Assembly (NCBI RefSeq): GCF_024171735.1
Contig: NZ_JAMTCH010000003.1
Span: forward strand, 1,290,841-1,354,840
Reading direction: 5' to 3'
Source: Prauserella alba
GTDB lineage: Bacteria > Actinomycetota > Actinomycetes > Mycobacteriales > Pseudonocardiaceae
DNA length: 64,000 bases
Shown here: in pieces, positions 1,167 to 27,837 of the stretch
Position numbering within the stretch: the stretch's first letter is position 1
Layout of the letters: each line of letters opens with the position of its first letter
Made by a program: the position numbers and the translations under genes
The notes under the pieces: generated by a model
The model's database searches: none
What the model was told of the DNA's origin: nothing
The model's input: the letters and a program-made list of their open reading frames with translations, nothing else

Positions 1167-1180
1167 TGAAACATGTTCTA
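1167..1180. promoter_or_regulatory. KstR operator and -10, fadE34 promoter
   Basis: TGAAACATGTTCTA is an exact match to the KstR consensus. Its last two bases begin TACAAT (1179-1184), a good -10 hexamer that ends 7 bases before the GTG at 1192. This implies a leaderless transcript whose promoter is blocked by KstR. Confidence 0.88.
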
Positions 1181-1191
1181 CAATCGCGCTC

Positions 1192-3417
1192 GTGGGTATC
1201 GCGATGACGGACGAGCAACGAGCACTGGCCGACGCCGTGCGGGCTGCGGCGCAATCCCCCGACCCGGCCGCGGCGATCGGCGGCATCGGGTTGCCGTCGG
1301 TCGCCCTGCCGGAATCGCTCGGCGGGGCGGGCGGTGGTGTCACGGACCTGGTGGCCGGTGTCGCGGCCGCGGCGGGCGAGCTGGCGGGCGGTGCCGGTCT
1401 CGGCTCGGCTCTCGCCGGGCTCGCGTGGGCGCAGCGGCCCGCGTCCGCGGTGGCCCTGCGGTACGCGCCCGCCGTGGCCGCGGGCACCGTACGGGCGGCG
1501 GTGGCGTTCGAGCCGGGAGACCTCGTCGCACGGCCGGGCCGGGACGGCGGCGTCGTCGTCGACGGCACCACGCCGGTGCTGCCGGACGGTCCCGATGCCG
1601 ACGTGCTGCTGCTCGCCGCGCGCACCGGCGCCGACGGGGCGGCGGCCGCACCTGCGGGGAGCGAGAGTGCCGCCGACACGGTGTGGTTCGCGGTCGAGGC
1701 CGCGCGGGTGCGCGTTGCCGAACACGAATCCTTCGATCCGAGCCGCCGGATGGCTACTGCCGAGCTGCGGGCGGTGGCCGTGCCGGGCGACGACGTGCTG
1801 GGCAGCGTCGCCGTCCCGGAGCTGGCAGCCACGCTGGCGGCCGCGGAGGCCGCGGGGGTGGCGGAGTGGTGTGTGCGCACGGCGAGTGAGTACGCGCGGG
1901 TCCGCGAGCAGTTCGGCCGTCCCATCGGTGCGTTCCAGGCGGTGCAGCATCTGTGTGCGGAGATGCTGTGCCGGTCGGAGTCGGCGGCGGCTCTCGCGTG
2001 GGACGCCGGACGCGCCGCGGACACCGGTGACGCCGAGCAGTTCGCCGTTGCCGCGGCGGTCGCGGCGGCGGGTGCGCTCGACGCCGCCGTCGACACCGCG
2101 AAGGACTGCATCCAGGTGCTCGGCGGGATCGGCTTCACCTGGGAGCACGACGCGCACCGGTATCTGCGCCGCGTCGTGTCGCTGCGCCGGCTGCTCGGCG
2201 GCACGGTGCGGTGGCGCCGGAGAGCGGGGGAACTGACGCGGGCGGGCGTGCGGCGTGGCGTCGAGGTGGACGTCGACGCCCACGCCGGGCCCGGAGCCGG
2301 CGAGGAGCTGGCCGAGGTGCGCCGCGGTGCCGCCGCGCTGGCGGCCGAGCTCGCCCCGCTGGACGGGCCGGAGGTCCGGGTGCGCCTCGCCGAGAGTGGG
2401 TACCTGGCCCCGCACTGGCCGCGGCCGTACGGGCTCGAGGCGACGCCGGCCCAGCAGCTGGCGATCGACGCCGAGTTCGAACGTGCCGGTCTCACCCGGC
2501 CCGACCTGGTGGTGGGCGCGTGGGCGCTGCCGACGATCCTGGAACACGGTTCCGAACAGCAGCGGGAACGGTTCGTGTTGCCGACATTGCGGGGCGAGGT
2601 GACCTGGTGCCAGCTGTTCAGCGAGCCCGGAGCCGGATCCGATCTGGCGTCCCTGCGCACGTCGGCGGAGCGCGCCGAGAGCGGCGACGGGGGAGAGGCC
2701 ACTCCCGCCGGTGAGGGTGTGGCCGAGCGGGCGTCCGGAGGGTGGCGGCTGTACGGCCAGAAGGTCTGGACCTCGCTCGCGCACGAGGCGGACCGGGCGA
2801 TCTGCCTGGCCCGTACCGATCAGGACGCGCCGAAGCACCGCGGCATCACGTACTTCCTCGTCGACATGCGCGCGCCGGGTATCGAGGTGCGGCCGCTGCG
2901 CGAGATCACCGGTGAGGTGCGATTCAACGAGGTCTTCCTGGACGGGGTGTTCGTGCCGGACACCGACGTCGTGGGAGAGGTGAACGGCGGGTGGGCGCTT
3001 GCGCGCACGACCCTCGCCAACGAGCGGGTCGCGCTCGGCGGCGGTTCGGCGGTCGGCGAGGCGGTGGAGCAGCTCCTGGCCGAACAGCCGGAGCTGGACG
3101 CCGAACGTCTCGGTGCTCTCGTCGTCGACGGGTCGGCGGTGTCGGTTCTCGGGGTGCGGGACACCGTCCGCAGGCTCGGTGGTGGTCAGCCCGGTGCGGA
3201 GTCGAGTGTGCAGAAGCTCCTCGGGGTGCGGCACCGGCAGGAGGTCGCGGAGGCGGCACTGGAAGCGCGGGGGTCCTGGGGCGCCGTCGTCGACGAGTCG
3301 ACGTCGGCGGCGCAGCACGAGTTCCTGCTGTCGCGATGCCTGAGCATTGCGGGCGGGACGACGCAGGTGCTGCTCAACGTGGTGGCGCAGCGGTTGCTGG
3401 GCCTGCCTCGCCGCTGA
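1192..3417 (+). CDS. fadE34: Two-domain acyl-CoA dehydrogenase FadE34 (ChsE3)
   Basis: FAD enzyme that introduces the double bond into the C5 steroid side chain (3-oxo-chol-4-en-24-oyl-CoA in M. tuberculosis). At 741 residues it is a fusion of two acyl-CoA dehydrogenase units. The N-terminal half has the ACAD C-terminal motifs REQFGRPIGAFQAVQ and QVLGGIGFTWEHDAHRYLRR. The C-terminal half starts near residue 365 and has FSEPGAGSDLASLRT for FAD and substrate, and a helix-G glutamate in LANERVALGGG, the likely base. Position next to kstR matches Rv3573c. No Shine-Dalgarno is seen; the GTG at 1192 is chosen because it lies 7 bases after the -10 hexamer. An internal ATG at 1204 is the alternative. 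Confidence 0.92.
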   Translation: MGIAMTDEQRALADAVRAAAQSPDPAAAIGGIGLPSVALPESLGGAGGGVTDLVAGVAAAAGELAGGAGLGSALAGLAWAQRPASAVALRYAPAVAAGTVRAAVAFEPGDLVARPGRDGGVVVDGTTPVLPDGPDADVLLLAARTGADGAAAAPAGSESAADTVWFAVEAARVRVAEHESFDPSRRMATAELRAVAVPGDDVLGSVAVPELAATLAAAEAAGVAEWCVRTASEYARVREQFGRPIGAFQAVQHLCAEMLCRSESAAALAWDAGRAADTGDAEQFAVAAAVAAAGALDAAVDTAKDCIQVLGGIGFTWEHDAHRYLRRVVSLRRLLGGTVRWRRRAGELTRAGVRRGVEVDVDAHAGPGAGEELAEVRRGAAALAAELAPLDGPEVRVRLAESGYLAPHWPRPYGLEATPAQQLAIDAEFERAGLTRPDLVVGAWALPTILEHGSEQQRERFVLPTLRGEVTWCQLFSEPGAGSDLASLRTSAERAESGDGGEATPAGEGVAERASGGWRLYGQKVWTSLAHEADRAICLARTDQDAPKHRGITYFLVDMRAPGIEVRPLREITGEVRFNEVFLDGVFVPDTDVVGEVNGGWALARTTLANERVALGGGSAVGEAVEQLLAEQPELDAERLGALVVDGSAVSVLGVRDTVRRLGGGQPGAESSVQKLLGVRHRQEVAEAALEARGSWGAVVDESTSAAQHEFLLSRCLSIAGGTTQVLLNVVAQRLLGLPRR

Positions 3418-4648
3418 CGGGTGCGCCCGCGCCGTTGCGGTGCCGGTCGCGGGTCCATTCGAGGAACCGTTCGACACCGGCGACGACGTGGGCGCTGCGG
3501 ATCGAGGGGAAGATGTCGAACGCGTGCTGTGCGCCCGGGATCTCGGCGTAGGCCACGGGCTGTGGCGAGACGGCGCGCAGGGCGCCGACGAACCGGCGTG
3601 CCTCTCCGACGGGCACGAGGCTGTCCCGGTCGCCGTGGATCACGAAGAACGGAGGCGCCGCGTCGGTGATGCGGTCCAGCGGGGAGGCCGCGACGTAGTC
3701 CGCGTGGGTCGGCTCAGGGCCCATGACGAACCGCGCCAGCAGGCCGCGCATCCGGGCGGCGCTGGCCCGGGAGCCGCTCGTCGCGGCGAAGTCGTAGACA
3801 CCGTAGTGCGGCACGCAGGCCTGCACGCTGGTGTCGCTGCCGGTGAACCCCGGCTGGAACGCGGGATCGTTCGGGGTCAGTGCCAGCAGCGATGCCAGGT
3901 GCCCACCCGCGGAACCGCCCGTGGTGGCCACGAACGACGGATCTCCCCCGTAGTCGGCGATGCGGTCCCGGATCCAGGCGAGGGCGCGTTTGGCGGCCAC
4001 GATGTGCTCGGGCCAGCGGGAACGGGGTGAGAGCGGGTAGTTGATGGCCACGCAGGTCCAGCCGCGCCGGGCCATGTGCAGCATGAGCGGGACGCCCTGT
4101 TCGTTCTTGCTGCCGGTCATCCACGCGCCGCCGTGCACCTGCAGCAGCACGGGCCTGCCGGTGCCGGGCTCGTTCGGGCGGTAGACGTCGAGCAGGAACC
4201 GGCGTCCGCCCCGGTCGTAGGCGATGTCGCGGTCGCGCCGGACGCCGCGGGTGTCCATGCGGAACGGGAAGGCCAGCCTGCCCCACGGTGTCGCCACGTC
4301 GTCGGCGGCGCGGTCGCCGGTGGGGCCGCGGTGGTCCGGGCCGAGGGCGTCGGTGAGAGCGGTGTCGACGACCCCGCGGGCGCGGCGGGCGGATTCGATG
4401 AGAGCCGCGAGTCCGCCGGCCGACGCGGCCGCCATCGCCAGCCCGGTGGGGTCGCTCGCGCGGCGGTGCCGGACGAGATGGGCGGTCGTGTCGGCCGCGG
4501 TGAGTGCGAGCAGCTGCGGGGCGAGTTCGGAGGTCAGCCAGCCTGCGACGAAGGCGGGGACGGAGATCCGGTGTCCGGACCACGGCCGGATCGCGTTGGT
4601 GGTCAGGGCCAGTTGCAGCGCTCGGCGCGCACGGAACCACGCGTGCAT
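3374..4648 (-). CDS. Alpha/beta hydrolase, hormone-sensitive-lipase type esterase
   Basis: A 424-residue hydrolase. The oxyanion-hole motif HGGAW is at about 172-176 and the nucleophile elbow GGSAGG has Ser at about 246. The acid and base are likely in HGDRDSLVPV and GAQHAFDIF. This order is that of the HSL/BD-FAE esterases, resembling the mycobacterial Lip proteins such as LipO. The N-terminal 130 residues before the catalytic domain are family-specific and may sit at the membrane. Its 3' end overlaps that of fadE34 by 44 bases on the opposite strand. It diverges from the fadE28 operon with one KstR box between, so it may belong to the regulon; the natural ester substrate is unknown. Confidence 0.82.
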   Translation of the reverse strand: MHAWFRARRALQLALTTNAIRPWSGHRISVPAFVAGWLTSELAPQLLALTAADTTAHLVRHRRASDPTGLAMAAASAGGLAALIESARRARGVVDTALTDALGPDHRGPTGDRAADDVATPWGRLAFPFRMDTRGVRRDRDIAYDRGGRRFLLDVYRPNEPGTGRPVLLQVHGGAWMTGSKNEQGVPLMLHMARRGWTCVAINYPLSPRSRWPEHIVAAKRALAWIRDRIADYGGDPSFVATTGGSAGGHLASLLALTPNDPAFQPGFTGSDTSVQACVPHYGVYDFAATSGSRASAARMRGLLARFVMGPEPTHADYVAASPLDRITDAAPPFFVIHGDRDSLVPVGEARRFVGALRAVSPQPVAYAEIPGAQHAFDIFPSIRSAHVVAGVERFLEWTRDRHRNGAGAPVSGEAGPATAAPPR

Positions 4649-4751
4649 GCGGCAAGCGTATCCGGGACCCGGCCGTGCCCGATGTCGAGAACCGGTTCCT
4701 CTCCTCGATCTCGGCAGTGTCCTTGCCACCGAGTGCATTTATCCAGCAAAC

Positions 4752-4765
4752 TAGAACATGTTACA
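4752..4765. promoter_or_regulatory. KstR operator, fadE28 operon
   Basis: TAGAACATGTTACA fits the KstR consensus at every fixed base. It lies 95 bases before the fadE28 start and 103 bases before the divergent esterase start, so it could control either or both. Confidence 0.85.
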
Positions 4766-4860
4766 AATATTGATGGTGTCGAACCCGGGTGGCGGTGGCC
4801 GGAGGTCTCCGGTGCGTCGCGGGACCGGTGGCGCCGGACGGCACTGGACGAAGGAGTCGC

Positions 4861-5988
4861 GTGGATTTCACTCCGGACGAGATGCAGCGCACGGCGGCCG
4901 AGCTCGCGGCCGGCGCGCTGGCCAGGGCCACGGGTGGGGACGACGGCCGTGCCGAGGGCGGGGCCGTGGCCTGGCGCCGACTCGCCGACGCAGGCCTGCT
5001 CGCCCTCGTCGTGCCGGAATCGCTCGGCGGGGACGGTCTCGGTGTCGCGGAGACGGCCGCCGTCGTCCGGGAGGTCGGCCGCGCAGGTTCGCACGCACCC
5101 GCGTGGGCGGCGTTGACGCTCGGTGTGGCCCCACTCGTGCACCTCGGTGCGTCGGAACGGTGCGCAGGTCTGCTGCGGGCCGTATCGGCGGGGGACGCCG
5201 TGGTGACCGCCGCGCTGCACGAACCCTCGGCCCCCATGGTGGAACGACCCGCGACCGTCGCGACGGCCACCGGCGCGACAGGCACAGTGGGGGCGGGCCC
5301 GGCTGAGACGTGGCGGCTCGACGGGGTGAAGACCGCGGTGCCGCTGGCCGCCGAGGCCGAACGAATCCTCGTGCCCGCCACGGTCACCGGCGGCGGCACG
5401 GCCGTGTTCCTGCTCGATCCGTCCGCACCCGGCGTGCACGTCACGCCGGCTCCCACGGCGTCGGGCACGCCGGAGGCGGTTCTGCGGCTCGACGGCGCCG
5501 CGACGGGCCCGCCGCTGGACGAGGCCTGCGGACCCGGTGGGGCGGTACGCGTGCTGCACCGGCACGCGCTCGCCGGGGCCGCGGCGTTCGGCGACGGACT
5601 GCTCGCAGGGGCACTCGCCCTGACCACGCAGCATCTGGGCACTCGGGAACAGTTCGGCCGCCCGCTGGCCACGTTCCAGGCCGTGGCCCAGCAGGTCGCG
5701 GACGTCTACGTGGCCGCGCGCACGGTACATCTGGCCGCGGAGTCGGCGGTCTGGCGGCTCGCCACCGGGCGGGACGCCGATGCCGATCTCGACGTCGCGG
5801 CGTACTGGCTCGCCGAGCAGGCGCCCCCGGCGATGGCCACGTGTCACCACTTGCACGGCGGGATCGGCCTCGACGAGACGTACCCGCTGCACCGGTACTC
5901 GTCCCTGCTGAAAGACCTGGTCCGCGGCATCGGCGGACCGTCGTTGCGCCTCGACCGGGTCGGTGCGCTCACCGGAGGTGCCGCCTGA
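4861..5988 (+). CDS. fadE28: Acyl-CoA dehydrogenase FadE28-like subunit (ChsE1)
   Basis: Non-catalytic partner of an alpha2beta2 acyl-CoA dehydrogenase that works on the C3 steroid side chain (3-oxo-4-pregnene-20-carboxyl-CoA). The 375-residue protein has the FAD-binding motifs TREQFGRPLATFQAVAQQ and HHLHGGIGLDETYPLHRYS. It lacks a glutamate at the helix-G position where its partner has one. The GTG at 4861 is chosen because GAAGGAG lies 6 bases before it. It heads a tightly overlapping operon with fadE29, chsH2, chsH1 and ltp2, the same order as Rv3544c-Rv3540c (igr operon). Confidence 0.9.
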   Translation: MDFTPDEMQRTAAELAAGALARATGGDDGRAEGGAVAWRRLADAGLLALVVPESLGGDGLGVAETAAVVREVGRAGSHAPAWAALTLGVAPLVHLGASERCAGLLRAVSAGDAVVTAALHEPSAPMVERPATVATATGATGTVGAGPAETWRLDGVKTAVPLAAEAERILVPATVTGGGTAVFLLDPSAPGVHVTPAPTASGTPEAVLRLDGAATGPPLDEACGPGGAVRVLHRHALAGAAAFGDGLLAGALALTTQHLGTREQFGRPLATFQAVAQQVADVYVAARTVHLAAESAVWRLATGRDADADLDVAAYWLAEQAPPAMATCHHLHGGIGLDETYPLHRYSSLLKDLVRGIGGPSLRLDRVGALTGGAA

Positions 5989-7169
5989 TGGACATCGCGC
6001 TCACGGCCGAGCAGGAGCGACTGCGGGACGAACTGCGCCGCTACTTCACCGGGCTCGTCACGCCGGAGGAACGCGGGCTGCTGCTCACCGAACGGCACGG
6101 GCCCACCTACCGTGAGGTGGTACGCCGGATGGGCCGTGACGGTTGGCTCGGCGTCGGCTGGCCGAAGGAGTACGGCGGCCTGGGCTTCGGACCGGTCGAA
6201 CAGCACATCTTCGCCGACGAGGCCGCGCGTGCCGACATCCAGCTGCCCGCCGTGACGTTGCAGACCGTCGGGCCGACGCTGCAGCGGTACGGCACCGAGG
6301 AACAGAAGCGCCGTTTCCTGCCCGCGATCCTGGCCGGCGAGGTCCACTTCGCCATCGGCTACAGCGAACCCGAGGCGGGCACCGATCTCGCGGCACTGCG
6401 GACCACGGCGGTCCGCGACGGCGAGTCCTATGTGGTCAACGGGCAGAAGATCTTCACGACGGGCGGCCACGACGCCGATCACATCTGGCTCGCGGTTCGC
6501 ACCGATCCCGGCGCGCTGTCGGACGCGAACAGGCGGCGGCACGAGGGCATCTCCATCCTCATCGTCGACACGTCCGATCCGGGCTATTCGTGGACACCGA
6601 TCATCACCTGCGACGGCGCGCACCACGTCAACGCGACGTACTACTCGGACGTGCGGGTCCCCCGATCCATGCTGGTGGGCGAGGAGAACGCCGGATGGAA
6701 GCTCATCACGACCCAGCTCAACCACGAGCGCGTCATGCTCGGGCCGGCGGGCCGGATCGGCGGGCTCTACGACCGGGTGCGCCGTTGGGCGGCCGAGCGC
6801 TCGAGTCCGGGCGGTACGCCGCTGCTGGAGCTGCCCGACGTGCGCCGCGTGCTCGGTGAGGTCCGCGCCGTCACGCGCGTCAACGAACTGCTCAACTGGC
6901 AGGTCGCGGTGTCCGAATCCGGGTCGGTGGCGGACGCCTCGGCGACGAAGGTGCTCTCCTCCGAGCGGCACCAGCGGGTGAGCAGGCTGCTGGAGGAACT
7001 GGTCGGCAGGCACGGCGATCCTTCCGATCCGGACACTGCCGAACTCGCCGGCTGGCTGGACACGCTCACCAAACGCAACACCGTGCTGACGTTCGGAGGC
7101 GGAGTGAACGAGATCCAACGGGAACTGATCTCACAGTTCGGCCTGGGGCTGCCGAGGGTGCCGCGATGA
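5988..7169 (+). CDS. fadE29: Acyl-CoA dehydrogenase FadE29, catalytic subunit (ChsE2)
   Basis: Catalytic subunit of the ChsE1-ChsE2 dehydrogenase, which oxidises the last three side-chain carbons before release. The protein is 393 residues. It has GYSEPEAGTDLAALRTTA near 124-141 for FAD, WLAVRTDP, and a helix-G Glu at residue 247 in LNHERVMLG, the position of the catalytic base in isovaleryl-CoA dehydrogenase-like enzymes. The ATG overlaps the stop of fadE28 (TGATG) and GGAGG stands 9 bases upstream, so the two subunits are translationally coupled. Confidence 0.93.
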   Translation: MDIALTAEQERLRDELRRYFTGLVTPEERGLLLTERHGPTYREVVRRMGRDGWLGVGWPKEYGGLGFGPVEQHIFADEAARADIQLPAVTLQTVGPTLQRYGTEEQKRRFLPAILAGEVHFAIGYSEPEAGTDLAALRTTAVRDGESYVVNGQKIFTTGGHDADHIWLAVRTDPGALSDANRRRHEGISILIVDTSDPGYSWTPIITCDGAHHVNATYYSDVRVPRSMLVGEENAGWKLITTQLNHERVMLGPAGRIGGLYDRVRRWAAERSSPGGTPLLELPDVRRVLGEVRAVTRVNELLNWQVAVSESGSVADASATKVLSSERHQRVSRLLEELVGRHGDPSDPDTAELAGWLDTLTKRNTVLTFGGGVNEIQRELISQFGLGLPRVPR

Positions 7170-8239
7170 GCGCGGCCACGGACAGGGCCGCCACAGGCGA
7201 CGGCAGCGGCCCCGCCGGCATCGGACGGAGCATCGAGGAGGCCGCGCGCGAGATCGCCGCGGCCGGCCCCTCGGCCCCCGAACCGGCGCGGGACCCGGTG
7301 AACCAGGCAATGATCAACAACTGGGTCGAGGCCATCGGGGACGCGAACCCGGTCTACACCGATCCGGCTGCGGCGGCCGAGTCCGTGCACGGGCGGCTCG
7401 TCGCCCCGCCCGCGATGACCCAGGTGTGGACGATGCGCGGGCTGCACGGGGTGCGGCCAGCCGACGATCCGCTCCGCCGGGCCACGGAACTGCTCGACGA
7501 GGCGGGATACACCTCGGTCGTGGCGACCGACTCGGCACAGACCTACCACCGCTACCTGCGGCCCGGCGAACACGTCGCCGCGGTCGCGGTACTGGAGAGC
7601 ATCGCCGGTCCGAAGCGGACCGCGCTCGGCGAAGGCTGGTTCGTCACCACTCGCACGACCTGGTACGTCGACGACGAGGCCGTCGCGGAGATGACGTTCC
7701 GGATCCTGAAGTTCCGCCCGCCGGAGCAACCGGCCACCGGCCACTCCGCGGGTGCGACCGGGGACGCGGGGACAACCGGGGGCGCGGGGACAACCGGGGG
7801 CGCGGGGACGGCCACGGCGGGGGACGACGCCGCGTCCGCCGAGGCCGCGCAGGTGCTGCGCCCCGTGGTGACACGGGACAACGCGTTCTTCTGGGACGGT
7901 CTGCGCGAGGGAGAACTGCGCATCCAGCGCTGGGGCGGGACGCTCCGGCACCCGCCGGGACCGCTGCCACCGGACGGCGACCTCGACGCGGAGCCGGACT
8001 ACGTGGTCGCGGCGGGAACCGGGACCGTCCACAGCTTCCTCGTCCACCACCATCCCCCGGTGCCCGGCAAGCGCCTGCCGTTCGTGCTCGCACTGGTGGA
8101 GCTGGACGAGGGGGTGCGCATGCTCGGTGAGCTGCACGGGGTCGACCCCGGTGACGTCCACATCGGCCTCGCTGTGGAGGCGAGTGTCGACCGGATCGAC
8201 GACGACCTGACGCTGCCGGCATGGAAGGTGCGGTCATGA
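7166..8239 (+). CDS. chsH2: Steroid enoyl-CoA hydratase subunit ChsH2 (MaoC + DUF35)
   Basis: Two-domain protein of 357 residues that pairs with ChsH1 to hydrate the C3 side-chain enoyl-CoA, while its C-terminal DUF35 domain docks the aldolase Ltp2. The N-terminal hot-dog part has MINNWVEAIGDANPVYTD and GRLVAPPAMTQVW. The DUF35/OB part starts after about residue 230 (LRIQRWGGTLRHPPGP). Between them is a Gly/Thr/Ala linker encoded by 18-bp repeats, which makes it longer than the 311-residue Rv3542c. The DUF35 part shows no zinc-ribbon cysteines, unlike the DUF35 protein at 23355. Start overlaps the fadE29 stop (ATGA). Confidence 0.92.
   Translation: MSAATDRAATGDGSGPAGIGRSIEEAAREIAAAGPSAPEPARDPVNQAMINNWVEAIGDANPVYTDPAAAAESVHGRLVAPPAMTQVWTMRGLHGVRPADDPLRRATELLDEAGYTSVVATDSAQTYHRYLRPGEHVAAVAVLESIAGPKRTALGEGWFVTTRTTWYVDDEAVAEMTFRILKFRPPEQPATGHSAGATGDAGTTGGAGTTGGAGTATAGDDAASAEAAQVLRPVVTRDNAFFWDGLREGELRIQRWGGTLRHPPGPLPPDGDLDAEPDYVVAAGTGTVHSFLVHHHPPVPGKRLPFVLALVELDEGVRMLGELHGVDPGDVHIGLAVEASVDRIDDDLTLPAWKVRS
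7752..7810 (+). repeat. 18-bp tandem repeats encoding the ChsH2 linker
   Basis: About three copies of an 18-bp unit related to ACAACCGGGGGCGCGGGG encode a Thr-Thr-Gly-Gly-Ala-Gly type linker between the hot-dog and DUF35 domains. Copy number is likely to vary between strains because the unit keeps the frame. Confidence 0.8.
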
Positions 8240-9794: not shown

Positions 9795-9804
9795 CCCGCG
9801 TGTC

Positions 9805-13728: not shown

Positions 13729-13742
13729 AAGAACGTGTTCTA
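13729..13742. promoter_or_regulatory. KstR operator and -10, hsaA promoter
   Basis: AAGAACGTGTTCTA fits KstR except for its first base. The final TA begins TAATCT (13741-13746), a plausible -10. The hsaA ATG is 63 bases further, with its own GAGGAAGG ribosome site. Confidence 0.82.
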
Positions 13743-13805
13743 ATCTGGCGGCAGTACACCGAGCAGGCCGGCCCCCGGGTTCGGCGGAGAAGGAACGAGG
13801 AAGGT

Positions 13806-17374
<3,569 letters not shown>

Positions 17375-18299: not shown

Positions 18300-19517
<1,218 letters not shown>

Positions 19518-19588
19518 TCAATGTGGCCACGGGACTCTTTCCTAGAGGGGTCATTCGGCGACTGTTCGTGATCAAGGTGATCCCAATC

Positions 19589-19615: not shown

Positions 19616-19653
19616 TCTTCACCGAGTTAACGCCGTATGCTTCACTCGGCGAG

Positions 19654-19667
19654 TAGAACGAGTTCCA
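19654..19667. promoter_or_regulatory. KstR operator, cyp125 promoter
   Basis: TAGAACGAGTTCCA fits the KstR consensus. It lies 26 bases before the chosen cyp125 ATG and overlaps an earlier in-frame ATG at 19667, which argues against that earlier start. Confidence 0.85.
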
Positions 19668-19693
19668 TGACGCTGCTCGCGGAGGTCCGGCGC

Positions 19694-20920
19694 ATGACGA
19701 CGTCACTGTTGCCCGAAGGTTTCGACTTCACCGATCCCGATCTGCTCGCGCGGCGGCTGCCGCTCGACGAACTGGCGCTGCTGCGCCGCACCGCACCCGT
19801 GTGGTGGAACGACCAACCGCACAACGTGGCGGGCTTCGGCGACGACGGCTTCTGGGTGGTGACCCGCCTCGAAGACGTGAAGGCCGTGTCGAAGGACAGC
19901 GAGTTGTTCTCCTCGAGCGAGAAGACCGCGATCGTCCGCTTCGACGAGAACATGGACGAGGACGGCCTCAACGCCAACCGTCTCGTGCTGCTCAACATGG
20001 ACGCGCCGCAGCACACCAAACTGCGCAGGATCGTGTCCAAGGGCTTCACGCCGCGGGCGATCAACAAGCTCGAGGACGGATTGCGCGAACGCGCCCGGCA
20101 GATCGTCGCCGACGCGAAGGAGAAGGGCTCCGGCGACTTCGTACAGGACGTGGCCTGCGAACTGCCGTTGCAGGCGATCGCCGACCTGATCGGCATCCCG
20201 CAGGAGGACCGGCTGAAGATCTTCGACTGGTCCAACCAGATGATCGGCTACGACGACCCCGAGTACGACGTCGACCCGTTGACCGCCTCGGCCGAGCTCG
20301 TCAGTTACGCGTTCGCGATGGCGGAGGAGCGGCGGCAGAATCCCACCGACGACATCGTCACCAAGCTCGTGCAGGCCGATGTGGACGGTGAGTCGCTCGC
20401 CTCGGACGAGTTCGGCTTCTTCGTGATCCTGCTCGCGGTGGCCGGCAACGAGACGACCCGCAACGCCATCACCCACGGCATGAAGGCGTTCCTCGACCAC
20501 CCGCAGCAATGGGACCTCTACAAGCGCACCCGCCCGGACACGACCGCCGACGAGATCGTGCGCTGGGCGACACCGGTCGTGGCGTTCCAGCGCACGGCCA
20601 CTGCCGACACCGAGCTGGGCGGCCAGCACATCCGCAAGGGCGACCGCGTGGCGATGTTCTACAGCTCGGCCAACTTCGACCCCGAGGTGTTCGACGAACC
20701 GGAGACGTTCGACATCCTGCGTGACCCGAACCCGCACGTCGGCTTCGGTGGCACGGGGGCGCACTACTGCATCGGGGCGAACCTGGCGCGACTGGAGATG
20801 AATCTGATCTTCAATGCGATCGCCGACGCCATGCCGGACATCCGCGAGGTCGCGCAGCCGGAACGGCTGCGCTCGGGCTGGCTCAACGGCATCAAGCACT
20901 ACGAGGTCGCCTACGAGTAG
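19694..20920 (+). CDS. cyp125: Steroid C26/C27 monooxygenase CYP125
   Basis: Cytochrome P450 of 408 residues that oxidises the terminal methyl of cholesterol or cholestenone to the C26 (C27) acid, the first step of side-chain breakdown. Motifs are the I-helix AGNETTRNAITHG, the ExxR helix EIVRW, and the haem loop FGGTGAHYCIGANLARLE with the Cys ligand. The N-terminus PEGFDFTDPDLLARRLP is characteristic of the CYP125 family. The ATG at 19694 is used because GGAGG stands 8 bases before it and upstream ATGs fall in or before the operator. Electrons must come from a ferredoxin not seen in this window. Confidence 0.93.
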   Translation: MTTSLLPEGFDFTDPDLLARRLPLDELALLRRTAPVWWNDQPHNVAGFGDDGFWVVTRLEDVKAVSKDSELFSSSEKTAIVRFDENMDEDGLNANRLVLLNMDAPQHTKLRRIVSKGFTPRAINKLEDGLRERARQIVADAKEKGSGDFVQDVACELPLQAIADLIGIPQEDRLKIFDWSNQMIGYDDPEYDVDPLTASAELVSYAFAMAEERRQNPTDDIVTKLVQADVDGESLASDEFGFFVILLAVAGNETTRNAITHGMKAFLDHPQQWDLYKRTRPDTTADEIVRWATPVVAFQRTATADTELGGQHIRKGDRVAMFYSSANFDPEVFDEPETFDILRDPNPHVGFGGTGAHYCIGANLARLEMNLIFNAIADAMPDIREVAQPERLRSGWLNGIKHYEVAYE

Positions 20921-20939
20921 GCAGGCGAGCCGACCGCAG

Positions 20940-20991: not shown

Positions 20992-20992
20992 T

Positions 20993-21055: not shown

Positions 21056-21127
21056 GGGTCAGAGGGGCCACGTCGTGCGTGGCACCCGGTCCTCACCTGT
21101 GACCGGGAGCCACGCACGCCGCGACCG

Positions 21128-22288
21128 TCAGGCCGGTTTGTCGGCGCCGACCAGCCACATGGAGAAATACTGCGAGCCGCCGCCGTAGGCGTGGCCCATC
21201 GCCGTGCGGGCATCGTCGACCTGATACTCGCCCGCGCGGCCCATCACCTGCTTGGCCGCCTCGGAGAACCGGAGCATGCCGGACGCTCCGATCGGATTGG
21301 ACGAGAGCACCCCGCCGGACGGGTTGACCGGCAGTCTGCCCCCGAGTGCGGTCTCGCCGGACTCGGTGAGCTTCCAGCCCTCGCCGTCGGGGGCGAAGCC
21401 GAGATTCTCCAGCCACATGGGCTCGAACCAGGAGAACGGCACGTAGATCTCCGCGGTGTCCACCTGGGACAGCGGGTCGGTGATGCCGGCCTGGCGCCAC
21501 AGCTCGGTGGCCGCGTCCCTGCCCGCCTGCGGGTTGACCTGGTCGCGGCCGGCGAACGTGGTCGGTTCGGTGCGCATGGCGGTGGCTTGGATCCAGGCGG
21601 GCGCCGGGGAGTCGTCGCCGGCCCGTTCGTCGCCGATCACCATTGCGCAGGCACCGTCGGACGACGGGCACGTCTCGTCGTAGCGGATCGGGTCCCACAG
21701 CATCTGCGAGGCCTGCACGGATTCGACCGTGATCTCGGACTGCCGCAGATGTGCGTGCGGGTTCAACGCCCCGTTCCGCCGGTCCTTCGCCGCGACGATC
21801 GCCCCGACGTGCTCCGGAGCGCCCGACCGGCGCAGGTAGGAGCGCACGTGCGGGGCGAAGTATCCGCCCGCGCCTGCGCCTACCGGCATCGTGAACGGCA
21901 CCCGGATGGACAGTGCCCACATCGCGTTGGACTCGGACTGCTTCTCGAACGCCACGGTCAGCACGCGGCGGTGCACTCCGGACTGTACGAGACTCGCAGC
22001 CACGAGCGCGGTCGATCCGCCGACCGAGCCCGCGGTGTGCACCCGGAGCAGTGGTTTGCCGTTCGCGCCGAGTGCGTCGGCGAGGAACAGTTCGGGCATC
22101 ATGACGCCTTCGAACAGGTCCGGCGCCTTGCCCACCACGACGGCGTCGATGTCGGACCAGCCGACGTCGGCGTCGACCATCGCGCGGTCCACGGCTTCGC
22201 GGAGCAGTCCTGGCATCGACACGTCGGTGCGTTTGCTGCGGTGGTGCGTCTGCCCGGTGCCGAGGACGGCGGCGCGTTGCTTGGCCAT
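21128..22288 (-). CDS. ltp3: Thiolase-fold lipid-transfer protein Ltp3
   Basis: A 386-residue thiolase-superfamily (SCP-x thiolase type) protein. The motifs HTAGSVGGSTALVAASLV and NPSGGVLSSNPIGASGMLRF fit this fold. With ltp4 and a DUF35 gene just upstream it matches Rv3523-Rv3522-Rv3521; in Rhodococcus ltp3 and ltp4 are needed for breakdown of C24-branched sterol side chains, where an aldolase rather than thiolase reaction is expected. It starts 3 bases after the ltp4 stop. Note that the thiolase Cys position reads HTAGS, without a cysteine, in line with an aldolase. Confidence 0.87.
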   Translation of the reverse strand: MAKQRAAVLGTGQTHHRSKRTDVSMPGLLREAVDRAMVDADVGWSDIDAVVVGKAPDLFEGVMMPELFLADALGANGKPLLRVHTAGSVGGSTALVAASLVQSGVHRRVLTVAFEKQSESNAMWALSIRVPFTMPVGAGAGGYFAPHVRSYLRRSGAPEHVGAIVAAKDRRNGALNPHAHLRQSEITVESVQASQMLWDPIRYDETCPSSDGACAMVIGDERAGDDSPAPAWIQATAMRTEPTTFAGRDQVNPQAGRDAATELWRQAGITDPLSQVDTAEIYVPFSWFEPMWLENLGFAPDGEGWKLTESGETALGGRLPVNPSGGVLSSNPIGASGMLRFSEAAKQVMGRAGEYQVDDARTAMGHAYGGGSQYFSMWLVGADKPA

Positions 22289-22291
22289 GTG

Positions 22292-23344
22292 TCAGCCCCT
22301 CTCCAGGACGGTGACCAGGTTCTGTTGCAGCGCGGGACCACTCGTGGCGTGACCGAGGGTGCGGGTGGCGTCGCCGTCGAGGATGCGCTGTGCGGCCTCG
22401 CCGATCCGGGCGAGCCCGGCCGAGAACATCGGGTTGCCGGTGAGGGTGCCGCCGGACGGGTTGATCCGTACGGCGTCGCCGAGTCCGAGTTCGTGGCGCA
22501 CGATGAGTTCCTGGTGGGTGAACGGTGCGTGGAGCTCGGCGACCTCGACCCCGTCGGTGCCGACCGCATCACCCGCGAGGCGGGTCGAGGGCGAAGTGGT
22601 GAGGTCGCGGGCGCCGAGGGACGGGGTGTCGATGCGGTGATCGATACCGCTGATGACGGCCGGCCGGTCGGCCAGGTCGCGGGCCCGGTCGGCCGCGGCG
22701 AGCACGATGACCGCGGCACCGTCGGTGACGGGGGCGATGTCGTGGCGGCGCAACGGATCGGCTATCGGCGTGGATTCGAGCAGGGCCGCCACGTCGGTCT
22801 CACCGCCGAACTGGGCACGGGGATTGCCCGCGGCGTCCCGCCTGTTGCGCGCCGCGACCTCGGCGAGGTCCTGTTCGGTCCACCGGCCGGATTCCAGCCC
22901 CAGCCGGGCCTGCAGCGCGGCGATGCTCACCGAGTCGGGCCACAGCGGGGCGACCGTGTACGGGTCGAGCTGCAACGACAGCACGCGCCGCAGCTCACCC
23001 GCCGACGACTTGCCGAATCCGTAGACCAGCGCGGTGTCGACCTCGCCCATGCGGATCTTCAGCCACGCCTCGTACAGCGCCCATGCCGCGTCCATCTCCA
23101 CGTGCGACTCGTGGATCGGCGGGAAGGCGCCGATCGCGTCGACCGCCGAGATGAACGAGAACGCCCGCCCCGCCAGGTAGTCCGAGGATCCGGAACACCA
23201 GAACCCGATGTCGGTCTTGGACAGTCCGGTCCGGGTGTAGACCTCGTCGAAGATCGGCACGAGCATCTCGACGCCGTTGGTGGTGCCGTGGGTCCGCCGC
23301 ACGTTGGGTGCCTGCGCGAACGCGACCACCGCGACTTCCGTCAT
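22292..23344 (-). CDS. ltp4: Thiolase-fold lipid-transfer protein Ltp4
   Basis: A 350-residue thiolase-fold protein, the likely partner of Ltp3 (compare Rv3522). It has IGFWCSGSSDYLAGR and ESHVEMDAAWALYEAWLKIR in the N-terminal half and INPSGGTLTGNPMFSAGLARI near the end. The ATG at 23344 is preceded by an AGAGG-type site. It lies 10 bases after the DUF35 gene, so the three form one operon under the KstR box at 24384. Confidence 0.86.
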   Translation of the reverse strand: MTEVAVVAFAQAPNVRRTHGTTNGVEMLVPIFDEVYTRTGLSKTDIGFWCSGSSDYLAGRAFSFISAVDAIGAFPPIHESHVEMDAAWALYEAWLKIRMGEVDTALVYGFGKSSAGELRRVLSLQLDPYTVAPLWPDSVSIAALQARLGLESGRWTEQDLAEVAARNRRDAAGNPRAQFGGETDVAALLESTPIADPLRRHDIAPVTDGAAVIVLAAADRARDLADRPAVISGIDHRIDTPSLGARDLTTSPSTRLAGDAVGTDGVEVAELHAPFTHQELIVRHELGLGDAVRINPSGGTLTGNPMFSAGLARIGEAAQRILDGDATRTLGHATSGPALQQNLVTVLERG

Positions 23345-23354
23345 GACTGCCTCT

Positions 23355-24374
23355 CTACAGGTGGTCGGCGTACGACGCGTACGGCGCGTCGGCTTCGCCC
23401 GTGGGTTCGAAGTGCGCGATGTTCTCGAGGCTCGTCGACCATTCCTCACGGGGTTTCCATGCGGCGCGCACGCGCATGCCCATGCGCACCTCGGAGGCCT
23501 CGCAGCCGAGCACGAGGTGCAGGAAGGGGATGTCGGCGCCGTCGAGCAGGATGTAGGCCCCGACGTACGGCGGTGCGATGCGCTGGCCCAGGAACGGCAC
23601 GTTGACGATGCAGAACGTCGTCACGATGCCGGTGTCGGGCAGTTCGGCCTCGTCGGTCGTCGGCACCCCGCACGTGGGGCACGCGCCGCGCGGCGGGATG
23701 TAGATCTTGCGGCAGGCCGGGCAGCGCTGGCCGAGCAGCCGGCCGTCGGCGAGGGCCCTGAGGTACCGGCTCTCTTCGAGGGAGGCCGAATGCGTGTAGT
23801 TCAGGTGCACCGGGGTGACGACGGTGTCGACCGTGTTGTCGTCGGCGCCGGTGTCGGCCGCCGGGGGAGCGGGGGCCGTCGGCGCCGGGTCGGTGGGCGG
23901 GTCGGCCACGGGGACGAAGTAGGCGATGTCGCGGATGTGGCCTACGGGTTCGTCGGCCCATCGGACGCGGACGCGTTGTCCGGTGTGGACGGATGTGGGG
24001 TCGCCGCCGGTGTCGAGTGCGTGGAGCATGGCCGTGTCGGCCCCGTCGAGGCGGACGAGCGCCCAGGCGAACGGCCGCTGTACCGGTTGGCCGGGCAGCG
24101 GGTCGGTGACCCACGACCACGACACGACCGTGCCCTCGGCGGCGACGTCGACCAGTTCGCCCGTCGGTTCGGCGGTGTCGGGGTCGTATTCGACCGGGGG
24201 CACGTGGACCCGGCCGTCGGAGCCGCGGGCGCCGAGAATCCGGCGCTGCGCGAGCGCGGTCATGAACCGCCCGAGCACGGGGCCGACCGAACGGGTGTAG
24301 TCGAAGCCGATGTCGAGCGGTGCGGACAACGGCTGCTCTGGTATCTCGGCTGATTCGGATTCGACAGCAGTCAC
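23355..24374 (-). CDS. DUF35 tandem OB-fold/zinc-ribbon protein (Rv3521-like)
   Basis: Probable accessory subunit of the Ltp3/Ltp4 aldolase. Of 339 residues, the first half is an OB-fold (VVSWSWVTDP to RVRVRWADEP) and the second half is a full DUF35 unit: a zinc ribbon CPACRKIYIPPRGACPTCG followed by an OB-fold ending HLVLGCEASEVRMGMRVRAAW. An acidic Pro/Ala linker separates them. DUF35 proteins bind thiolase-fold partners and help present the acyl-CoA. The GTG at 24374 lies only 9 bases after the KstR box and has no ribosome site, so the message may be leaderless. Confidence 0.85.
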   Translation of the reverse strand: MTAVESESAEIPEQPLSAPLDIGFDYTRSVGPVLGRFMTALAQRRILGARGSDGRVHVPPVEYDPDTAEPTGELVDVAAEGTVVSWSWVTDPLPGQPVQRPFAWALVRLDGADTAMLHALDTGGDPTSVHTGQRVRVRWADEPVGHIRDIAYFVPVADPPTDPAPTAPAPPAADTGADDNTVDTVVTPVHLNYTHSASLEESRYLRALADGRLLGQRCPACRKIYIPPRGACPTCGVPTTDEAELPDTGIVTTFCIVNVPFLGQRIAPPYVGAYILLDGADIPFLHLVLGCEASEVRMGMRVRAAWKPREEWSTSLENIAHFEPTGEADAPYASYADHL

Positions 24375-24383
24375 GCAAGAAAG

Positions 24384-24397
24384 TGAAACACGTTCTC
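24384..24397. promoter_or_regulatory. KstR operator, DUF35-ltp4-ltp3 operon
   Basis: TGAAACACGTTCTC fits the KstR consensus except for the last base. It is 9 bases from the GTG of the DUF35 gene. The hexamer at the -10 spacing (TTCACT on the minus strand) is weaker than at the other promoters. Confidence 0.8.
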
Positions 24398-24449
24398 GAT
24401 ATCCTCGGCAACCCGGTCCGATGAGGCGCCGGGCAGGGTTGCCCAAATG

Positions 24450-24463
24450 TGGAACGAGTTCTA
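24450..24463. promoter_or_regulatory. KstR operator and -10, fadD promoter
   Basis: TGGAACGAGTTCTA is an exact consensus match. Its last TA begins TAGATT (24462-24467), which ends 7 bases before the ATG at 24475, so the transcript is probably leaderless. Confidence 0.87.
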
Positions 24464-24474
24464 GATTTGCGAGT

Positions 24475-26067
24475 ATGACCTCGACGAATGCTGCGCGCCC
24501 CGCGACCGACCACCCCGCCGAGACCGTCGGCCTGTGGAACATCGCCGCCGAACGTCCGGAGCTGATCGCCGCCGTTGACCCCGACGGCACCGAGGTCACC
24601 TACGGGCAGCTGGCGGCCAAGGCGAACACGTACGCGCGCGGCCTGCAGGCGCTCGGTCTGGAGCCCGGGGACGCCGTCGTGGTGCTGCAGCCGAACGGGA
24701 TCGAACTCGTGGCCGCCTACTTCGCGGCGATCCAGTCCGGCCTGTACGTCGTGATGGCGAACTGGCACCTGACCGGGGCCGAGGTGGCGTACCTGATCAC
24801 CGACTCCGGGGCGAAGGCCTTGTTGGTGCACGAGCGGTTCGCCGACACGGCCGTCGCCGCCGCCGACGAGGCGGGTCTCGGCACCCGCGGCCGGTTCGCC
24901 GTGGGCTCCGTCGACGGATTCCGCCGCATCGAGGAACTCGGTGCCGGCGAGGGGGACGGCAGGCCCTCACGGCGCACGGCGGGTTCGCCGATGCTCTACA
25001 CGTCCGGCACGACGGGCAGGCCGAAGGGTGTGCGGCGTCCGCTGACCGGTGCCGATCCGGACGAGGTGTCGCCCGCCAACCGCGGCTTCTTCGCCATCTT
25101 CGGCATCGAGCCGTTCGACGGGCACGTGCACCTGTGCGGTTCTCCGCTGTACCACACGGCGGTGCTGAACTTCGTCGCGATCTCCATCCAGCTCGGGCAT
25201 CCGGCGGTGCTGATGGACCGGTGGGACCCCGAGGAGATGCTGCGGCTCATCGAACGCCACCGCGTGACCCACAGTCACATGGTGCCCACCCAGTTCCGCA
25301 GGCTGCTCGCACTGCCTGACGAGACCCGCCTGCGCTACGACGTGTCGTCGCTGCGCGTGATGATCCACGGCGCCGCTCCGTGCCCGGACGAGGTCAAACG
25401 GCGGATGCTCGACTGGTGGGGACCGGTGGTCACCGAGTACTACGCGGCGACCGAGGGTGGCGGCACCGTCATCAGCGGCGCCGAGTGGTTGCGCAAGCCC
25501 GGCTCGGTCGGCAGGCCGTGGCCGAACTCCACGGTCAAGATCCTCGACGACGACGGCAACGAACTGCCCGCGGGGGAGCCGGGGTCGGTCTACCTGCAGA
25601 TGGGCGGCTCGCGGTTCGAATACCACAACGACCGGGACAAGACCGAGCGGGCGAAGGTCGGTGAGCTGTTCACCCTGGGCGACGTCGGCCACCTCGACGA
25701 GGACGGCTATCTGTACCTGCACGACCGCAAGAGCGACATGATCATCTCCGGTGGGGTGAACATCTATCCCGCCGAGATCGAAGGCGAGCTGGCCGTGCAT
25801 CCCAAGGTCGCCGACGTCGCGGTGTTCGGCGTGCCGCACGACGACTGGGGCGAGGAGATCAAGGCGGTCGTGCAGCCCGCCGAGGGAGTCGAGGGCTCGG
25901 CCGCGCTCACCGAGGAACTCCTCGACCACGCCCGCGGCCGATTGGCGAAGTTCAAACTGCCGAAGAGTGTCGACTACCGCGACAGCCTGCCGCGTGACCC
26001 CAACGGCAAGCTGTACAAGCGGCGCCTGCGCGATCCGTACTGGGAGGGACGCGACCGCGCCATCTGA
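24475..26067 (+). CDS. Steroid or fatty acyl-CoA synthetase (FadD family)
   Basis: ANL-superfamily ligase of 530 residues that activates a carboxylic acid with ATP and CoA. It has the P-loop-like motif LYTSGTTGRPKGV (about 178-190), YYAATEGGG (A5-type), TLGDVGHLDEDGYLYLHDR (A7) and the C-terminal lysine motif PRDPNGKLYKRRLR. It is clearly different from the FadD19 gene at 27838. Its operator shows it belongs to the KstR regulon; a steroid-acid substrate such as a shortened side chain is likely, but which one cannot be told. FadD4- or FadD17-like are the nearest mycobacterial names I can suggest. Confidence 0.85.
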   Translation: MTSTNAARPATDHPAETVGLWNIAAERPELIAAVDPDGTEVTYGQLAAKANTYARGLQALGLEPGDAVVVLQPNGIELVAAYFAAIQSGLYVVMANWHLTGAEVAYLITDSGAKALLVHERFADTAVAAADEAGLGTRGRFAVGSVDGFRRIEELGAGEGDGRPSRRTAGSPMLYTSGTTGRPKGVRRPLTGADPDEVSPANRGFFAIFGIEPFDGHVHLCGSPLYHTAVLNFVAISIQLGHPAVLMDRWDPEEMLRLIERHRVTHSHMVPTQFRRLLALPDETRLRYDVSSLRVMIHGAAPCPDEVKRRMLDWWGPVVTEYYAATEGGGTVISGAEWLRKPGSVGRPWPNSTVKILDDDGNELPAGEPGSVYLQMGGSRFEYHNDRDKTERAKVGELFTLGDVGHLDEDGYLYLHDRKSDMIISGGVNIYPAEIEGELAVHPKVADVAVFGVPHDDWGEEIKAVVQPAEGVEGSAALTEELLDHARGRLAKFKLPKSVDYRDSLPRDPNGKLYKRRLRDPYWEGRDRAI

Positions 26068-26197
26068 GGTCTCCGGATACCGAGTACTTCCCGGGTGTGC
26101 TGGTTACTCTCACGCGCGGCCCAGGCCTCCCAGCGCCGGCCACACCGGATGTGCGAACGCCACCCCGCGGCGAGCGGAGCCGACCGTAGCTCGGGTT

Positions 26198-26521
26198 CTA
26201 GTCGGGCAGCGGGTAAGCGTCGCTGAGGGCGGGGTAGTAGTCGGTGTCCCAATCCTGGTTGACGGAGGCGTGGGCGATGACGGCGCCGAGCCGGTCGAGG
26301 TAGTAGTGCCAGCCGGGTCCGACGCCGGTGGCGTCGTAGGGTTCGGCGAGGCGTTGGATGAAGACCAGGGTGGTGGAGCCGTCGTCGTTTGTAGTCAGCG
26401 AGAGCTGCAGTCGCCAGGTGTCCTCGGGGCTGGGCAGGTCGACGACCAACCGTGCGGGTTCCTCGCACTCCACGATGGTGACGGCTTGCGGGCCGGCGTC
26501 GTCCTCGAACCCATCGCGGTA
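26198..26521 (-). pseudogene. C-terminal remnant of an SRPBCC/AHSA1-like gene
   Basis: On the minus strand a frame reads like the last 100 or so residues of an SRPBCC (START-like) protein: VTIVECEEPARLVVD, WRLQLSLTTNDDGSTTLVF and GPGWHYYLDRLGAVIAHA up to a normal stop. Upstream of about residue DDAGPQAV the frame runs into the antisense of the next remnant and no start codon with a ribosome site exists. The N-terminal half of the domain is missing, so the gene is broken. Between 26068 and 26197 I see nothing else. Confidence 0.6.
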
Positions 26522-26803
26522 CCGGAGGCGGCCCGGGAGCGATTCTGGGAGCGGGTCCGGAGTACGCACGCCGTGCTGCGGCAGCAGCCGGGGTTTCTGG
26601 ACGACATGCTGCTCGAACAGCACTCGGGCCCCGGCCGGTTCAACGCCGTCACCGTGGTCCGGTGGGCCTCGGAGGACGCGCTGGCCGGTGCGAAGGCCGC
26701 CGTCGACGAGCTCCACCGCGCCGACGGGTTTCGGCCCGCCGAATTCTTCCGCGACGCGGGTATCGAAGCCGACGTGGCCAACTACGTCGACCTGCCCCGC
26801 TGA
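26486..26803 (+). pseudogene. Antibiotic-biosynthesis-monooxygenase-like remnant
   Basis: The plus-strand frame VVLEPIAVPEAARERFWER through PGFLDDMLLEQ, FNAVTVVRWASEDAL and VANYVDLPR resembles a complete small ABM/YgiN-like dimeric alpha-beta barrel protein lacking only its first residues. No ATG or GTG is in frame at the expected place; a TTG at 26486 without ribosome site is the only option. It abuts the SRPBCC remnant head to head, so both probably lost their 5' ends in one deletion. Confidence 0.55.
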
Positions 26804-26828
26804 CCCTGTCCGGGGAGACCGACGGACT

Positions 26829-26881
26829 GCCCCCAGGGGCACTTTGGTCGCATTGAGTGCAACCAAAGTGCCCCTGGGGGC
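26829..26881. terminator. 20-bp perfect palindrome, bidirectional terminator or dispersed repeat
   Basis: Arms 26829-26848 and 26862-26881 pair perfectly over 20 bp around a 13-base loop, with the core GGGGCACTTTGGT. It lies between the convergent ABM remnant and echA19, which suits a terminator. The high perfection and AT-containing core also look like a dispersed intergenic palindrome. Confidence 0.75.
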
Positions 26882-26890
26882 TTGTCGGTG

Positions 26891-27679
26891 TCAGCGGGCG
26901 CGGAAGTTCGGGGTGCGTTTCTCGGCGAAGGCGCGCGGGCCCTCCTTGGCGTCCTCGCTGGCGAACACGCCCACGCCGTACTGGGACTCCAGTGTGAAGG
27001 CCTCCTCCTCGTGCATCCCCTCGGTGTCACGCATCGTGCGCAGGATGGCTTGTACGGCAAGCGGACCGTTCGCGGCGATCGTGTCGGCGATCTCCAGCGC
27101 CGTGTCCAGGGCGTCGCCGTCGGGGACGACCCGCCCGATCAGTCCGATGTCGCGTGCCTCGGCGGCGGCGATGTGCCTGCCGGTCAGCAGGATCTCCGCG
27201 GCGACCGTGTAGGGGATCTGGCGCGGCAGCCGCACCGCCGACCCGCCGAGTGGGAACAGTCCCCAGCGCGCCTCGGAGACGCCGAACTTCGCGCTCTCGC
27301 CCGCGATCCGGATGTCGGTGCCCTGCAGGATCTCGGTGCCGCCCGCGATCGCGGGCCCTTCGACGGCGGCGATGAGCGGTTTGGTCAGCCTGCGGCCTTT
27401 GAGTAGACCGTCCATGCGGCTCGGGTCGAACGTGCCCTTGTCGAACGAGTCCGAGGGCCGGTTGCTGTTCATCGCCTTGAGGTCGGCGCCCGCACAGAAC
27501 GTGCCGCCCGCACCGGTCAGCACGCAGCTGCGGATCTCGGCGTCCTCGTCGACCCGGTCCCATGCCTCGGTCATGATCGCGAGCATGTCGGCCGTGAGCG
27601 CGTTGCGCGCTTCCGGCCGGTTCAGCGTCACCACGAGGGTGTGCCCGCGTTGTTCCACCAGAGCGTGCGCCTCGGTCAT
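26891..27679 (-). CDS. echA19: Steroid enoyl-CoA hydratase EchA19
   Basis: Crotonase-family hydratase of 262 residues that adds water to the side-chain enoyl-CoA (3-oxo-chol-4,22-dien-24-oyl-CoA in M. tuberculosis). It has the oxyanion-hole segment [16 protein letters not shown] near 55-70 and [21 protein letters not shown] with the second backbone NH; one catalytic Glu lies in [12 protein letters not shown]. The ATG at 27679 has an AAAGGA site. It is divergent from fadD19, as Rv3516 is from Rv3515c, and may share its operator. Confidence 0.9.
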
Positions 27680-27812
27680 GTGGGTCCTTTCGCCCGTCGG
27701 GGAGATGCGGTGCCGGTGCGTGCGGCCGCCGCGGGAGTGGCCGGGCCGGTGCGACGCCCGGCCGCGGGGTTCGCGGGGTCTGATCCCGCGGAACTTCACC
27801 ATTGCCCGAAAC

Positions 27813-27826
27813 AATAACATGTTCTA
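27813..27826. promoter_or_regulatory. KstR operator and -10, fadD19 promoter
   Basis: AATAACATGTTCTA matches the KstR consensus except for the first base. Its last TA begins TAGTTT (27825-27830), ending 7 bases before the GTG at 27838, so fadD19 is probably leaderless. It is the only box in the echA19-fadD19 gap. Confidence 0.86.
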
Positions 27827-27837
27827 GTTTGTTCGTC

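Follow-up and report, generated by a model that had tools for sequence, protein, structure and literature searches.

In this study, we analysed a 64,000-nucleotide stretch of the Prauserella alba genome (the window; genome size 5.6 Mb, family Pseudonocardiaceae), which contains a steroid-degradation cluster, and related the operators of the repressor KstR to the promoters they would control. These are very likely KstR-repressed promoters in which the operator is fused to the −10 element, and three of them would yield leaderless mRNAs. The proposal that the operator occupies the first two bases of the −10 together with the −35/−10 spacer is supported by related loci. At fadE34, at the fadD gene starting at 24475 and at fadD19, the message very probably begins at the start codon, ATG or GTG (RTG). 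As judged from sequence, the fused operator/−10 unit is constant while the leader comes and goes. We call this placement of the operator register A; in the window it comprises the following features, where SD denotes a Shine-Dalgarno sequence.

1167–1180, plus strand: KstR box of fadE34 (register A), TGAAACATGTTCTA, exact consensus
1179–1184, plus strand: −10 of fadE34, TACAAT, TA common to the box; GTG at 1192
4748–4765, minus strand: KstR box and TAGTTT (4753–4748) before a LipQ-like esterase; ATG at 4738, 13 nt past the box
13729–13746, plus strand: hsaA box with TAATCT at 13741–13746 (register A, leadered); ATG at 13806
19493–19521, minus strand: fadA5 promoter (register A, SD leader), TTGATC, 17 bp with the box, TACTTT at 19498–19493; GTG at 19460
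24439–24444, plus strand: −35 TTGCCC of the fadD gene at 24475
24450–24463, plus strand: KstR box of the fadD gene (register A)
24462–24467, plus strand: −10 TAGATT of the fadD gene, TA common to the box; ATG at 24475
27802–27807, plus strand: −35 TTGCCC of fadD19
27813–27826, plus strand: KstR box of fadD19 (register A), one mismatch to consensus
27825–27830, plus strand: −10 TAGTTT of fadD19, TA common to the box; GTG at 27838

Re-reading by coordinate agreed with the initial annotation of this DNA on several points. All ten KstR-like boxes that it claimed are present, and in the five genes that it named (fadE34, hsaA, fadA5, fadD and fadD19) the terminal TA of the box doubles as the opening TA of a TANNNT hexamer. 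At fadE34, fadD and fadD19 the hexamer ends 7 nt before the start codon, the box ends 11 nt before it, and no ribosome site precedes it. The annotated span ended at 27830, short of the fadD19 start at 27838. The overlap at the box starting at 4752 is an additional case, absent from those five; the NCBIfam score of the LipQ-like esterase lies under the family cut-off. At hsaA and fadA5 the overlap is present in the window, but each gene has a leader with an SD.

For fadD19, loci were picked by protein similarity, not by promoter. The 110 loci comprise 80 named fadD19 loci, mostly from Pseudonocardiaceae, plus Nocardia, Hoyosella and one Mycobacteriaceae bin, and 30 loci that are the best matches in a second family group (f8), which includes Hoyosella and in which 95 of 121 genomes matched. 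Three of them (L186, L188 and L189) are the same DNA as L064, L065 and L066, leaving 107 distinct loci; the counts quoted here include these duplicates. A TA-ended box was present in 107/110 loci (104/107 once the duplicates are removed), namely 78 of the 80 named loci and 29 of the 30 from f8. Throughout these 107 box-bearing loci, a TANNNT hexamer shares the TA of the box and an in-frame RTG follows, 10 nt after the box in 64 and 11 nt in 43, while AGGA, GGAG or GAGG occurs at −17 to −6 in none. In 102 of them (77 named, 25 f8) a TTG lies upstream, separated by a 17-bp spacer. The bases between the −10 and the start diverge, yet their length is kept. Among the 80 named loci, protein alignment puts the start at a GTG in 49 and at an ATG in 31. 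The hexamer beside the box is thus conserved in relatives at fadD19, the outcome on which the initial annotation had let its proposal depend. Its fixed distance of 11 nt from box to start holds for the three window genes and widens to 10 or 11 nt in relatives.

Three fadD19 loci (L071, L072 and L192) are boxless. Both L071 and L072, from Nocardia, have lost the operator and kept TTG, 17 bp, TANNNT, 6 nt and ATG in that order; since promoter and spacing persist at these operator-less loci, the promoter is separable from the operator. L192 is a FadD19 relative that has no TA-ended box upstream and, by eye, lacks the conserved promoter too.

The other register A promoters keep the overlap with a variable leader. 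For the fadD gene at 24475, the 78 tblastn loci were reduced to 52 by requiring identity of 65% or more and sufficient upstream sequence; 51 of these 52 carried a box, all 51 with the TANNNT overlap and 48 with TTG at a 17-bp spacer. The first in-frame RTG lay at 10 nt (16 loci), 11 nt (30) or 12 nt (2) in 48/51, and at 38 or 52 nt in the remaining three. A protein search with fadE34 gave few clear orthologues, so KstR was taken as the anchor for these loci; 42 sites were found in 50 loci, with the overlap in 41/42. An RTG followed at 10 or 11 nt at 25/42 of these sites and a leader with SD was present at 16, L164 being the exception, and the overlap is kept in leaderless and leadered loci alike. 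At fadA5, 36/37 loci had the box (37/37 under a second pattern) and 34 of the 36 boxes had TTG at 17 bp; the protein-aligned start lay 27–64 nt past the box with an SD-like tetramer ahead of it in 37/37. Five fadA5 loci also carry an in-frame RTG at 11–12 nt, and in one f8 genome (L275) the thiolase starts 10 nt past the box. For hsaA, 22/30 loci had TA followed by NNNT, four had no box and four had a CA-ended box; most starts were tens of nt from the box, with protein-aligned ATGs at 11 and 10 nt in L391 and L392, respectively. The leaderless or leadered state thus changes among genera at both fadE34 and hsaA. Taking a −10 about 6–7 nt before the RTG and no SD as the mark of a leaderless gene, this arrangement was found in 107/107 loci of fadD19, 46/51 of fadD and 25/42 of fadE34. 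The overlap itself is a feature of fadD19, fadD and fadE34 that kstR and cyp125 do not share.

Mechanistically, the 14-bp operator would fill most of the 17-bp −35/−10 spacer, its last TA doubling as the first TA of a SigA-type −10, so that a bound KstR dimer would cover DNA needed by RNA polymerase and act as a steric block. Cholesterol-derived coenzyme A (CoA) thioesters would release KstR and open the promoter, in keeping with steroid CoA thioesters as the KstR ligand (PMC8228715). At fadE34, fadD and fadD19, transcription would start 6 or 7 nt past the −10, on the first base (A or G) of the start codon, and the leaderless mRNA would in this organism be read from its 5′ RTG. The operator/−10 unit would then be a fixed module and the 5′ leader a distinct feature that individual genes acquire or shed, with other genes of the regulon using other fixed operator positions. 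Without a leader, a gene offers no transcribed stretch outside its coding sequence to accommodate an operator, which would plausibly have to sit upstream.

How firmly the hexamer can be assigned to the promoter depends on controls for chance and for operator symmetry. A survey of four genomes collected 92 sites of the form AACRYGTTCTA, its rows covering 30/40 sites of genome G116 and 30/31 of the P. alba genome, with only 13 RY-centred sites of the latter among the 92. T occurred at +4, the fourth base after the box, in 42/92 sites (neighbouring-position background 0.231, p = 1.6e-6), and was also common at +2 (49) and +3 (39). TTG was found 17 bp away in 11 sites, 18 bp in 5 and 19 bp in 3, compared with 0–1 at the other distances tried. 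RTG starts of open reading frames (ORFs) of at least 100 codons peaked at 10–11 nt, with 13 (about 6.5 per position, against 0–4 elsewhere), 11 of which belong to TANNNT sites. The evidence from related loci is far stronger than this survey. That the operator supplies the TA, that the T falls there by luck and that 11 nt is a coincidence we regard as practically negligible: three cases in a single window are indeed few, but conservation over two family groups and the four-genome enrichment refute it. The T-rich flanks of the box raise a more specific concern, since the fourth base could then belong to the operator, which called for a mirror control. Under such an explanation the T at +4 would be part of an extended KstR operator, with the promoter elsewhere and the genes preceded by SD-less leaders. 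In agreement with it, +2 and +3 at fadD19 are both T-rich and mirrored (T in 83 and 85 of 85 distinct records, mirror A in 85 and 84), and +4 at fadA5 is largely mirrored too. At +4 of fadD19, T is found in 85/85 with the mirror A in only 28 (107 vs 33 of 107 for all loci), and at the fadD gene in 38/38 distinct records vs 12; since it is unmirrored at fadD19, the T there is not just operator symmetry, and symmetry as its sole cause was rejected by this control. In addition, the operator-less Nocardia loci retain the hexamer, and three boxes that are TA-ended on either side have no TANNNT facing kstR. We therefore consider an extended operator very improbable.

A closer variant would have initiation occur just upstream of the start codon, leaving a leader of 1–5 nt, or allow two starts matching the 10- and 11-nt spacings. 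In M. smegmatis, messages with leaders no longer than 5 nt have been classed as leaderless, and two −10 spacings were reported to predominate (PMC6448022), both of which would accommodate it, while each of the 107 boxed fadD19 loci has 6 or 7 nt between the −10 and the RTG. We view this variant as unlikely though conceivable, and it is mostly compatible with initiation at the RTG of a fused promoter, the reading we favour. Several observations weigh against that reading. The fadD19 loci share descent, so their counts are not independent (85 distinct records); the RTG scans searched ATG and GTG only, other start codons being checked by the aligned codon; and an SD-like pentamer lies closer to the start than −6 in 5/100 fadD19 loci. 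An SD tetramer occurs in 3/51 loci of the fadD gene, and no TTG precedes the −10 of fadE34 in the window at a 17-bp spacing. At fadA5 the mirror control gives little contrast (T in 30/30 vs mirror A in 22/30), and only 42/92 TA-ended boxes of the survey show TANNNT, although some of the boxes without it look like coding or chance sites.

The regulon is not of one design. The initial annotation had proposed a uniform one; this holds for the overlap in the register A genes and fails where hsaA and fadA5 are leadered and where kstR and the cyp125-like gene have the operator downstream of the −10. An overlap combined with a leaderless start is thus not common to all KstR genes. The downstream placement, register B, comprises:

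1091–1104, minus strand: KstR box of kstR (register B, downstream of the −10)
1117–1122, minus strand: −10 of kstR, TAGACT, 12 nt upstream of the box
19636–19641, plus strand: −10 of the cyp125-like gene, TATGCT
19654–19667, plus strand: KstR box of the cyp125-like gene (register B, SD leader); ATG at 19694

At kstR, the box starts 12 nt after a conserved TANNNT in 25/29 loci assessed; 29 of 50 loci were used, L162 and 20 short stretches giving no usable match. Of 43 loci examined for the cyp125-like gene, 38 had a box, which in 33/38 starts 11 nt (22 loci) or 12 nt (11) after a TANNNT that is mostly TATGCT, and an SD-like motif lies within 60 nt after the box in 38/38. At both genes the bound repressor would lie over the bases that are transcribed first. 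Ahead of the cyp125-like −10, upstream of 19636, is a second stretch that is conserved and palindrome-like (GTTAACGGGTTTCAC and GGTTAACACCG) and that recurs at the same place in many of the loci L016–L070; it is possibly a weak KstR site or that of another regulator.

A further register, C, is seen at kstD of f8, where the ATG follows the box by 1 nt in 25/30 loci and by 2 nt in a single locus; a box is absent from two loci, and two others carry a different one, 16 nt from the start. Within the box, TAACGT or TAACCT forms a TANNNT that ends 7 nt before the ATG (8 in the 2-nt case) in 25/25 loci picked up, and an in-frame GTG inside the box is an alternative possible start in 20/30. In-box hexamers of this kind occur at 10/92 survey sites, two of these being kstD. 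Expressed as box start minus last hexamer base, the registers are −17 for fadD19, fadD, fadE34, fadA5 and hsaA, −7 for kstD, +13 for kstR and mostly +12 for cyp125. The steps between them approximate one, two and three turns of the helix, a pattern that +13 fits better than the +12 more often seen at cyp125. It is conceivable, if doubtful, that discrete registers in steps of about 10 bp keep KstR on one helix face relative to the polymerase and that only the upstream ones permit leaderless messages; by our estimate such agreement would arise by chance about 1 time in 10 (three registers, one-base tolerance), which makes it a lead only.

The setting of these promoters is that of a KstR regulon: kstR is encoded in the window at 428–1078, and the palindrome TNNAACNNGTTNNA is present 5′ of steroid genes. 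The ten intergenic boxes start at 1091, 1167, 4752, 13579, 13729, 19497, 19654, 24384, 24450 and 27813. Allowing at most one mismatch, the KstR consensus occurs 16 times in the window (expectation 3.08), and 0/100 shuffles reached 16, while no KstR2-type sites were found in the window at up to 3 mismatches. The genes concerned are:

428–1078, minus strand: kstR, TetR-type repressor; PF00440 and PF17925 (scanned on the longer ORF 428–1174); SD AGGAG; close relatives found
1192–3417, plus strand: fadE34-like fused acyl-CoA dehydrogenase adjoining kstR; GTG start, 11 nt past the box
24475–26067, plus strand: acyl-CoA ligase, fadD17/FadD4-like, name not established; ATG, predicted leaderless
27838–29454, plus strand: fadD19-like acyl-CoA synthetase, NF005863 subfamily above cut-off; GTG, predicted leaderless

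We take the gene beside kstR to be fadE34 from its position, and we assume the gene name fadD19 for the protein with the NF005863 subfamily match, whose closest named relatives belong to four Prauserella species (identity 91–95%). Both hsaA (NF045629) and fadA5 (NF005889) score above curated cut-offs, the cyp125 label of the P450 gene in the cluster rests on position, and the fadD gene at 24475 is left without an established name because no listed NCBIfam score reaches its cut-off. A KstR-like sequence with one mismatch also lies within the fadD19 coding region at 28208–28221. On the plus strand at 4773–5306, an ORF of 177 aa has its ATG 7 nt past the plus-strand end of the box starting at 4752; it gave no Pfam match at 1e-5 and no NCBIfam match at 1e-10.

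Related boxes elsewhere were noted in passing. In G116 (f8), KstR boxes precede likely leaderless or near-leaderless genes for fadD8-like, acetoacetate decarboxylase-like and alcohol dehydrogenase proteins, with starts 11, 10 and 12 nt after the box (L264, L282 and L268, respectively). At L116 in the P. alba genome and L279 in f8, a box is followed at 10 nt by a leaderless-type GTG opening an ORF of 388 and 375 codons, respectively; the first residues agree between both genomes, and the ORF had no Pfam match at 1e-5 and no NCBIfam match at 1e-10. On the other side of that box (L278), and at similar boxes (L314 and L326), an ATG lies at 11–12 nt without TANNNT.

Parts of this arrangement have precedents. 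Uhia in 2011 reportedly described a leaderless promoter, P5228, of the M. smegmatis 3-beta-hydroxysteroid dehydrogenase gene, with the mRNA starting at the ATG and a KstR footprint over −10 and −35; this is one promoter, of another gene than those analysed here. Rv3515c is presumably fadD19. Its probe, positive in an electrophoretic mobility shift assay, carries TAGTTT in the same register (PMC1995591). That report by Kendall (2007) already placed a KstR operator over a −10 and showed binding and derepression for M. tuberculosis and M. smegmatis sites, several of which correspond to sites treated here, and the regulons of both species share with ours the repressor type, the 14-bp palindrome and the −10 overlap at kstR/fadE34 (PMC1995591). 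It describes the overlap for one intergenic region with starts unmapped, and its accessible portion makes no claim of a fixed spacing or of leaderless messages (PMC1995591). In R. ruber, the kstD3 promoter has a KstR box near the ATG, was proposed to be leaderless and needs only 23 bp upstream, although the start-site method yielded no result; its −10 was put at TATAAC, two bases before the in-box TANNNT that we read (PMC5348764). At the f8 kstD loci, which are of register C, the box lies 10 bp closer to the start than in register A promoters.

Concerning the hexamer, mycobacterial TANNNT elements are centred 7–12 bp before the transcription start (PMC3898074), and leaderless transcripts there likewise have a TANNNT-type −10 at a canonical distance from the RTG (PMC3898074, PMC4633059, PMC6448022). 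The accessible parts of such start surveys report TANNNT or ANNNT and no −35 consensus (PMC3898074, PMC6448022), unlike fadD19, fadA5 and the fadD gene, where TTG at 17 bp is near-invariant. No co-mention of fadD19 with "leaderless" was found in the literature searched, subscription journals lying mostly outside its coverage. With the −10 overlap already known, what this comparison of sequences adds is the precision, the depth of conservation and the number of registers.

In conclusion, the loose statement that the KstR operator overlaps the −10 would become a base-exact rule kept over two actinobacterial family groups. Two traits that had been merged are separated, the operator/−10 fusion being constant and the leader not. 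Leadered and leaderless versions of one promoter would thereby offer natural pairs for the effect of leaderlessness on a regulated gene, and the rule may help sequence-based correction of start codons in steroid clusters.

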